A stretch of 64,000 nt of DNA, taken from positions 1 through 64,000 of the forward strand of contig WGNQ01000004.1 of NCBI GenBank assembly GCA_016124455.1. The letters are read 5' to 3'. Numbering within the stretch: the stretch's first letter is position 1; each line of letters begins with the position of its first letter. The notes beneath the pieces were generated by a model, which saw nothing but the letters and a program-made list of their open reading frames with translations, was not told the DNA's origin and ran no database searches. Source of the DNA: Sideroxydans sp. (GTDB lineage Bacteria > Pseudomonadota > Gammaproteobacteria > Burkholderiales > Gallionellaceae). The position numbers and the translations under genes are program-made. This document shows, in pieces, positions 36,519-38,974 of this stretch.

Positions 36519-37072
36519 GCCTCGTCTTTCCACTTGATGGAACAGCCCATGCTGGGAATCTGCTCCAGCGGGCCCTTGCCGGTCTGCGCTACCTGCATCA
36601 TGGCATTGAACAGATCGCGCGCCGCATCGGGTGCCGCTTCCTTGCGCGAGGCATCGAGACGGCCGCGGTACTGCAATTCCAGGTTGGCGTTGAAACCGAA
36701 AAAGTCCGGCGTGCAAACGGCGCCGTAATCCTTGGCCACCTGCTGCGTTTCATCCCATACGTAGGGGAAAGGATAGTCGTACTCCTCCGCCACCTTCTTC
36801 ATATTGTCGAACGAATCCTCCGGATAGTCAGCCGGGTCGTTCGACATGATGGCGATGCTGTTGATGCCGTGTTGCTGCAGTTCACGGGTATCGCGGATGA
36901 TGCGATCGCGGATCGACTGCACATAAGGGCAGTGGTTGCAGATGAACATCACCAGCAAGCCGTTCTTGCCGCACGCGCTTTGCAGCGTGTGCAGCCTGCC
37001 GTCCACGCCCGGCAGGCTGAATTCGCGCGCCTTCCAGCCGAAATCACAGACCGGTGGTTGCAAACTGACCAT
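36515..37072 (-). CDS. Thioredoxin-family (AhpC/TSA-like) protein
   Basis: A 185-residue redoxin of the family carrying the motif FICNHCPYV; the active-site cysteines are C45 and C48. No signal peptide, so cytoplasmic. SNDPADYPEDSFDNMKK and YVWDETQQVAKDYGA are typical of the thioredoxin-like subgroup annotated next to peroxiredoxins. It is the first gene of a two-gene unit with the IMPase-family gene and is divergent from rsmE. Confidence 0.88.
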   Translation of the reverse strand: MVSLQPPVCDFGWKAREFSLPGVDGRLHTLQSACGKNGLLVMFICNHCPYVQSIRDRIIRDTRELQQHGINSIAIMSNDPADYPEDSFDNMKKVAEEYDYPFPYVWDETQQVAKDYGAVCTPDFFGFNANLELQYRGRLDASRKEAAPDAARDLFNAMMQVAQTGKGPLEQIPSMGCSIKWKDEA

Positions 37073-37081
37073 AATCTACTC

Positions 37082-37109
37082 CTGACAACAAATCGAGGGG
37101 CGTTATATT
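37082..37109 (+). promoter_or_regulatory. Candidate sigma-70 promoter of rsmE
   Basis: CTGACA (37082-37087), a 16-base spacer and TATATT (37104-37109) lie about 33 bases before the rsmE ATG in the divergent 69-base gap. Confidence 0.5.
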
Positions 37110-37141
37110 ATCACGCTGGCCCATACCTCTTGAATCCGCCC

Positions 37142-37879
37142 ATGTCCGCACCGCGTTTCTATTGCCCGCCGCCACTGTCTTCCGGCGCTACCTTTGAACT
37201 GCCGCCCGAGGCAGCGCACCATGCCAGCCGCGTGCTGCGCCTGCGTGCGGGCGATGCCGTACAGATCTTCGACGGGCTGGGACAGGCGCTGGACGCCAAA
37301 ATCAGCGCCATCCAGGGCAAGCGCGTGCTGCTGCATGAATTGCAGACCTGCATGGACGGCACCGAATCGCCGCTGCGCATCACGCTGGCACAGGCAATGA
37401 GCAGCAGCGAGAAGATGGACTGGGTAATGCAGAAAGCCACCGAACTCGGCGTTGCCGAAATCCACCCGGTGCAGACCCAGCGCAGCGTAGCAAAGCTGAC
37501 CGAAGCACGCGCCGAGAAACGTACCGCGCACTGGCGAGGCATCACCGTTGCCGCCAGCGAACAATGCGGCCGCAATGTGTTGCCGCAGGTACATCCGCCA
37601 CAGGAGTTCGGCACCTGGCTGGACCAGGCGCGCCATTTGCCCGGCAGCAAATTCATCCTGCTGCCGGAAGGCGCTGCCATGCTGAGCAGGCAACTGCCGC
37701 CGCAGGGCAGCGCGACGCTGCTGATCGGGCCGGAAGGGGGCTTCAGCGAAAGCGAAGCGCAACTGGCCCAGCAGCTGGGCTTCATTCCGATCCGCCTCGG
37801 CGCGCGCACCCTGCGCACCGAAACCGCCGCCCTGGCCGGCATTGCCGCGCTGCAAACGCTATGGGGCGATTTTTGCTGA
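37142..37879 (+). CDS. rsmE: 16S rRNA (uracil(1498)-N(3))-methyltransferase RsmE
   Basis: 245 residues from the ATG at 37142; the open frame upstream runs back through the promoter and the opposite gene and is rejected. It is a SPOUT-fold methyltransferase with an N-terminal PUA-like domain (about 1-70) and the knotted SAM site: LLIGPEGGFSESEAQLAQQ and LGARTLRTETAALAG. The family N-terminus (PRFYCPP) supports the start. It precedes the phytochelatin-synthase-like gene by 19 bases. Confidence 0.95.
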   Translation: MSAPRFYCPPPLSSGATFELPPEAAHHASRVLRLRAGDAVQIFDGLGQALDAKISAIQGKRVLLHELQTCMDGTESPLRITLAQAMSSSEKMDWVMQKATELGVAEIHPVQTQRSVAKLTEARAEKRTAHWRGITVAASEQCGRNVLPQVHPPQEFGTWLDQARHLPGSKFILLPEGAAMLSRQLPPQGSATLLIGPEGGFSESEAQLAQQLGFIPIRLGARTLRTETAALAGIAALQTLWGDFC

Positions 37880-37898
37880 TGAATATGCGAGGCCTGCC

Positions 37899-38597
37899 AT
37901 GACCAAATCCGTGCTGCTGCTCCTGCTGTCCTTCTTCATTGCCGCCCCTTCCGCCGGCGCGGCCGAGCCGCCCGCGGTGGTCTACTGGAATTCCGATGCA
38001 GGCAAAACATTGCGCACGCATATCCCGGCCGATGCCGACTACTGGCAACTGGCACCGGTATTCACCGCACAGCGGACCCAGTCGTATTGCGCGGTGGCCA
38101 GCGCCGTCACCGTGCTTAATGCAATGCCGATCGAGCGTCCCGTCGATCCGACCTATGCGCCCTACGCCTACTTTACCCAACGCAACTTCTTCACGCCCGC
38201 GGTCAGCAGGATCATCGACGCGCAGACCGTGCTGGCACAGGGCATGACGCGCGAAGAAATGGCCAGGACGCTGGCGGCACATGGCGTCAAGACCAGCTCC
38301 ATCCCCGGCGACCGCCTGGACGAAGCCAGCCTGCGCACATTGCTGCAGAAGGCACTCGGAGACGACGGACAATTCGTGCTGGCCAACTACCTGCGCCAAA
38401 GCCTGGGCCAGGTCGGCGGCGGGCACTGGTCGGTGCTCGCCGCTTATGACGCACAATCGGATCGCGTGCTGATACTCGATGTGGCCAAATACAAATACGC
38501 GCCGGCATGGGTCACCATCAGCGCCCTGCACCAGGCCATTGCCACGCTGGATACCACCAGCCACCAGTCGCGCGGTCTGGTCATCGTATCGAAATAA
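37899..38597 (+). CDS. Exported phytochelatin-synthase-like cysteine peptidase
   Basis: 232 residues from the ATG at 37899, starting with a signal peptide (MTKSVLLLLLSFFIAAPSAGA). The papain-like catalytic triad of phytochelatin synthases is visible: C64 in QSYCAVASAV, H176 in GGGHWSVLAAY and D194 in ILDVAKY. The length matches the one-domain bacterial forms such as Nostoc Alr0975, which mainly hydrolyse glutathione to gamma-glutamylcysteine rather than polymerise it. The eukaryotic C-terminal Cys-rich regulatory domain is absent. Periplasmic location suggests glutathione turnover or metal handling outside the cytoplasm. Confidence 0.9.
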   Translation: MTKSVLLLLLSFFIAAPSAGAAEPPAVVYWNSDAGKTLRTHIPADADYWQLAPVFTAQRTQSYCAVASAVTVLNAMPIERPVDPTYAPYAYFTQRNFFTPAVSRIIDAQTVLAQGMTREEMARTLAAHGVKTSSIPGDRLDEASLRTLLQKALGDDGQFVLANYLRQSLGQVGGGHWSVLAAYDAQSDRVLILDVAKYKYAPAWVTISALHQAIATLDTTSHQSRGLVIVSK

Positions 38598-38725: not shown

Positions 38726-38974
38726 GTGAGCCTAAAGTCAGCTTTCATCATTGCCGTCTGCGCCGCACTGGGCCTGATTGCCGGATATGCAGTTTTCGGT
38801 AAATGGGCGGGTAGCTATGTGAGCATGGATACGCTGCTTTCTTTTGGCGGCAATGCATTCCAGAGCGCCCTTCGCTCCGTTTCCGGCATTGAAGCAATGC
38901 GCAACAAAATCCTGCTTTGTGGCGCTGCAGGCGGTGTAGTTGGCATATTGCTGGCTCTCACGGCAAAAAAATAA
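38726..38974 (+). CDS. Small membrane protein, unknown function
   Basis: 82 residues from a GTG start with an AAAGGA ribosome site a few bases upstream. Two hydrophobic helices: about 5-25 (AFIIAVCAALGLIAGYAVFG) and 63-78 (LLCGAAGGVVGILLALT). The middle is amphipathic. Not recognised. It lies 12 bases before the tautomerase gene and may share its transcript. Confidence 0.65.
   Translation: MSLKSAFIIAVCAALGLIAGYAVFGKWAGSYVSMDTLLSFGGNAFQSALRSVSGIEAMRNKILLCGAAGGVVGILLALTAKK

Follow-up and report, generated by a model that had tools for sequence, protein, structure and literature searches.

A predicted exported phytochelatin-synthase-like enzyme in Gallionellaceae, a family that keeps gshA and appears to have lost gshB

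In the 64,000-nucleotide stretch of Sideroxydans sp. DNA analyzed here (contig WGNQ01000004.1, positions 1 to 64,000; hereafter the window), an open reading frame on the forward strand at 37899..38597 encodes a one-domain phytochelatin-synthase-like (PCS-like) enzyme of 232 residues (PF05023, Pfam E=1.2e-50; PDB alr0975, E=3e-46) that is predicted to be exported. The explanation to which we give about an even chance is that this protein is a Sec-exported glutathione deglycinase, which would convert environmental glutathione to gamma-glutamylcysteine (gamma-Glu-Cys) outside the inner membrane. The fold and the catalytic triad are assigned by homology, the reaction is proposed by analogy with alr0975 of Nostoc, and export is predicted from the sequence.

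The limits of the reading frame are exact in the window sequence, with the start ATG at 37899 and the end of the stop codon at 38597; a plausible ribosome-binding site (GAGG) lies at 37889-37892, and an alternative in-frame ATG is found at 37881. The sole Pfam domain of the protein is PF05023, the phytochelatin synthase catalytic domain of peptidase family C83, whose match covers residues 24-226 and profile positions 7-209 of 210 with 172.1 bits against a cut-off of 24.9, and is not due to chance; this full-length match bears out the original prediction of a one-domain PCS-like enzyme. Among solved structures, a phmmer search of the PDB recognized only alr0975 (2btw/2bu3, 6th5, 6tho and 6tjl; residues 25-232, E=3e-46 to 8e-45); five alr0975 sequences reach E<=8e-45, and the match next in rank is due to chance. 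The two proteins share 85 identities over 209 aligned residues. The triad that had been proposed, C64, H176 and D194, aligns with positions 81, 194 and 212 of the 2btw chain, which after removal of an 11-residue tag offset correspond to C70, H183 and D201 of alr0975; we take these to be the published catalytic triad. The proposed residues are therefore in register, and all three are invariant across 14 aligned sequences. Their codons lie, on the forward strand, at 38088..38090 (Cys64, the only Cys of the protein), 38424..38426 (His176) and 38478..38480 (Asp194). A Phytochelatin_C domain (PF09328) was not matched by Pfam in the protein, which lacks the C-terminal domain with extra Cys residues of eukaryotic-type phytochelatin synthases, and no NCBIfam model matches it. 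A structure model built from the 14-sequence alignment has a mean pLDDT of 61, with residues 42-114, including the catalytic Cys, below 50. As an enzyme, the protein adds a further member to an established class.

Residues 1-21 (37899..37961, forward strand) form a probable Sec signal peptide, judged from the sequence and from the hydrophobic N-termini of relatives, with cleavage predicted after A21 or A22. The N-terminus, MTKSVLLLLLSFFIAAPSAGA followed by AEPP, contains a single Lys and a hydrophobic core, with small residues at -3/-1 and no lipobox, and inspection together with a hydrophobicity count finds in it the layout of a Sec/SPase I substrate (charged n-region, h-region, -3/-1 residues, no lipobox Cys). 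A hydrophobic N-terminus is shared by 47 of 47 distinct Gallionellaceae-type relatives (>60% identity), in which this segment differs in sequence while the mature part is well conserved; the same crude hydrophobicity test is passed by 10 of 43 neighboring genes, TrkH membrane proteins included. For these counts, duplicate relatives were collapsed on their last 150 residues, start codons were picked by script, and rows without a start (L074, L007, L051) were left out. The mature part holds a single Cys in 45 of the 47 relatives. These observations uphold the signal peptide of the original prediction, and the protein is probably exported to the periplasm. Alphaproteobacterial members of the family likewise start with signal-like sequences. 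By inspection, lipobox-like starts are present in L097, L099, L100, L101 and L102, from elsewhere in the order, and in the gammaproteobacterial L076; these six are probably lipoproteins, which would represent a second route to a position outside the inner membrane. As judged from such N-termini, export is usual among the proteobacterial members examined, and the window gene is not special in this respect. No report of natural export of bacterial PCS-like proteins was found in the open-licence literature, an absence that constitutes weak evidence.

The genes that surround the PCS-like gene offer no evident partner, and we do not claim an operon partner for it. An rsmE-type 16S rRNA methyltransferase ORF lies upstream on the same strand (36869..37879, from the ORF list and Pfam; its annotated start is over-extended), and as it ends 19 bases before the PCS-like gene, the two are probably co-transcribed. 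Downstream are found an 82-aa ORF and genes for an N-acetylglutamate-synthase-type protein, a Fe(2+)-trafficking protein and polyphosphate kinase, while thioredoxin-like, inositol-phosphatase-type and trkA/trkH-type genes lie upstream on the opposite strand; the gene names follow from the Pfam domains. The 82-aa ORF, just 3' of the gene (38726-38974), has hydrophobic stretches and no Pfam match. An Rfam scan of the window returned no matches.

The PCS-like gene is accessory in Gallionellaceae: PF05023 was matched in 53 of 158 genomes of the family, as opposed to 5 of 386 elsewhere in the order (Fisher p ~3e-26, with kinship unaccounted for). The outside set comprises 399 genomes drawn from the order minus the 13 of the family itself, read from listings, and the 53 include one match below the cut-off (G155), two genes with an in-frame stop (G120, G037) and some fragments. 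Relatives above 60% identity come mostly from records of Gallionella, Gallionellaceae, Sideroxydans, Ferriphaselus and Nitrosomonadales. Synteny was examined in 58 collection loci, alphaproteobacterial ones included, of which 54 remained after setting aside four without a picked PCS ORF. A purU-like gene directly precedes the PCS-like gene in 8 of the 54 loci, the rsmE cluster precedes it in two (L053, L058) besides the window, and most other neighbors are unshared; since the context varies so widely, the gene appears to have been often lost and moved. In 8 of the 53 genomes, all of genus g6, the PCS-like gene and gshA lie on one contig and no more than 13 kb apart, which is probably one inherited location and was not counted as evidence. 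A plasmid search yielded 19 records, all below 60% identity, and so gave no indication of a close relative on plasmids. One record titled uncultured Methylomonas (L054, 4700-5395) carries a copy that is 63% identical, reflecting either a mis-binned contig or gene transfer.

The thiol metabolism of the host lineage bears directly on the possible substrate. The genome that harbors the gene (89% complete) encodes gshA (PF08886; TIGR02049 equivalog) and gives no match to the gshB domain PF02955. Across Gallionellaceae, 140 of 158 genomes carry gshA (91 of the 94 good ones), and PF02955 is matched at E<=1e-3 in 18 of 158, strongly in only one (G065, 249 bits). The other 17 matches reach at most 24 bits and fall inside frames of about 720-930 aa; in the two of these frames that were read, a Mur-ligase-like motif, GTNGKTTT, comes after an ATP-grasp-like region, and both are presumably cyanophycin synthetases. 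PF02951, the N-terminal gshB domain, is found in a single genome of the 158, again G065, and as positive controls both domains were detected in E. coli and Caulobacter. Outside the family, PF02955 is present at E<=1e-3 in 370 of 386 genomes of the order, in about 365 of them strongly (370 less five weak matches, judged from the listing). Strong gshB matches occur in none of the 53 PF05023-positive family genomes; five of these 53 also give no gshA match, four being at most 83% complete and one 91%. A family-wide loss of gshB, and hence of glutathione synthesis, is thus predicted for Gallionellaceae, and it may have been a single event; a GshF-type or unrelated glutathione synthase may nevertheless exist in the family. 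No mention of this loss was found in the open-licence literature searched, which again is weak evidence. A report on "Ferrovum" JA12, another betaproteobacterial iron oxidizer, records a glutathione synthase (PMC4725956).

The position from which gshB would have been lost can be discerned by synteny. In all seven Gallionellaceae clusters inspected (G000, G011, G017, G065, G122, G123, G154) the genes run gshA-apbE-EIIA-HPr-ptsI, and nothing that lies between gshA and apbE matches gshB; the gshB-less cluster is exemplified by L105 7337-12243 (G000:C23) and is also present in L106-L108 and L114-L116. G161, an outgroup to the family, reads gshA-gshB-apbE-EIIA-HPr-ptsI, G456 reads gshA-gshB-apbE, and G403 has gshA followed by gshB, with no apbE; in G284, gshB lies in a stretch that is devoid of gshA of the PF08886 type. 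L109 and L111 represent outgroups with gshB in the slot. The loss is not explained by gaps in the assemblies, as six of the seven cluster genomes are near-complete and five consist of a single contig. G065 carries its strong gshB, the sole one in the family (L113 7271-8230, G065:C9), on another contig than its gshB-less gshA operon, and this copy has probably been moved or regained.

In enzymes of the PF05023 family, a gamma-Glu-Cys acyl-enzyme is formed and glycine is lost. In the window protein, C64 would thus attack the Cys-Gly bond of gamma-Glu-Cys-Gly, releasing glycine, and water would resolve the acyl-enzyme to free gamma-glutamylcysteine, with transfer to a second thiol as a minor side reaction. 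The expectation that hydrolysis prevails in one-domain forms agrees with work on the Nostoc enzyme as cited in PMC7411734: water mostly completes the reaction (PMC7411734, PMC12065762), and NsPCS converts GSH to gamma-Glu-Cys and Gly (PMC12065762). The donor would most likely be environmental glutathione or glutathione conjugates, because the host lineage keeps gshA and appears to have lost gshB. Gamma-Glu-Cys cannot be a donor, for it lacks a C-terminal residue that could be released; cells that make it and no glutathione would therefore lack an evident donor of their own, and external glutathione is what an enzyme outside the membrane would encounter. The product would be the very thiol that these cells are predicted to make, and it could be imported whole or degraded further, for example by the gamma-glutamyltransferase (GGT) of the genome, which has a plausible signal peptide. 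A transporter for gamma-Glu-Cys was not identified. A family-wide loss, perhaps one event, combined with a patchy gene (53/158), amounts to weak evidence of a functional link. PF05023 was not matched in other genera of the order that have no gshB, such as g34 and g35. The more general idea that exported forms accompany the loss of gshB was rejected, as gshB is present in 12 of 12 genomes tested outside the order that carry an exported relative (11 alphaproteobacterial and one gammaproteobacterial, by record title).

Three other explanations must be weighed against a salvage deglycinase. The protein could serve plain nutrient scavenging, in which a periplasmic GGT and peptidases would, together with it, break glutathione and similar peptides down to amino acids as sources of S and N, leaving no special role for gamma-Glu-Cys. 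We regard this as unlikely, although a GGT (PF01019) with a signal-like N-terminus is indeed encoded in the genome, and 17 of the 29 GGT-bearing genomes among the 158 of the family carry the PCS-like gene as well. The co-occurrence of the two genes is above expectation (17 of 53 genomes with the PCS-like gene as against 12 of 105 without it; Fisher p=0.0023, kinship uncorrected), and fits salvage and scavenging alike; however, 36 of the 53 gene-bearing genomes give no GGT match, and how gamma-Glu-Cys would then be split is not obvious. It is quite improbable, on the other hand, that the substrate is glutathione exported by the cell itself, or its metal complexes, with short phytochelatins perhaps being made in the periplasm. 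Membership of the phytochelatin synthase family speaks in favor of such a role, as does the Geitlerinema enzyme, for which PMC7411734 describes Cd-induced transpeptidation that yields phytochelatins. However, a convincing gshB is missing from 157 of 158 family genomes, as well as from the gshA operon, making self-made glutathione an unlikely donor and an environmental one more likely, and this part of the original prediction, that the enzyme acts on exported glutathione, is not supported. Moreover, the single Cys of the mature part, found in 45 of the 47 relatives, leaves no Cys-rich, metal-sensing part, and metal-resistance genes were not identified among the Pfam-annotated neighbors of the gene.

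It is improbable, too, that the periplasmic substrate is another gamma-Glu-Cys-like compound or an amide, as might be proposed from the Rhodobacterales homolog, which would take part in an oxidative pathway with a multicopper oxidase, a cytochrome c and a GMC flavoprotein. The corresponding operon is conserved in 11 of 12 alphaproteobacterial loci, in the order multicopper oxidase, (small cytochrome c), PCS-like protein, (small FAD-SLDH-type subunit), GMC oxidoreductase and membrane protein, where the cytochrome c and FAD-SLDH subunit occur in part of the loci and the membrane protein, which has no Pfam match, in most. This tight operon suggests other uses of the PCS-like fold; yet it is not seen in Gallionellaceae loci, the window protein is only 34-36% identical to the alphaproteobacterial ones, and the triad of alr0975 is retained. 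The operon is located at L081 6156-12236, with matching parts in L077-L080, L082-L084 and L086-L088. A periplasmic deglycinase acting on environmental glutathione remains our preferred reading.

Among known systems, the window protein is closest to Nostoc alr0975/NsPCS, a one-domain PF05023 enzyme with the triad and degree of identity described above, and differs from it in that alr0975 is cyanobacterial and its crystallized chains begin at the mature domain. With plant two-domain synthases of the AtPCS1 type it shares the catalytic domain and the acyl-enzyme chemistry (PMC10318531). Unlike those cytosolic enzymes, it is predicted to be exported, lacks PF09328 and has no Cys besides the catalytic one. 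Bacterial GGT (PF01019), present in the same genome, is likewise an exported glutathione-degrading enzyme, but its fold is unrelated and it cuts the gamma-glutamyl bond, so that its product is Cys-Gly rather than gamma-Glu-Cys.

We tentatively entertain the possibility that Gallionellaceae are gamma-glutamylcysteine bacteria, in which the gshA-apbE-pts operon has lost gshB but is otherwise intact, and roughly one genome in three encodes an exported enzyme that would turn the glutathione of others into the cell's own thiol; no description of such a thiol-salvage route was found in the open-licence literature searched. If true, a whole family of environmental iron oxidizers uses gamma-glutamylcysteine and not glutathione, and an enzyme class that is usually discussed for metal detoxification serves periplasmic thiol salvage. 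A precedent for the thiol itself exists in haloarchaea, in which, according to PMC7278568, gamma-glutamylcysteine is the main thiol and gshA occurs without gshB; the same gshA-without-gshB state is found here in a betaproteobacterial-type lineage, for which the thiol is predicted from genes alone.
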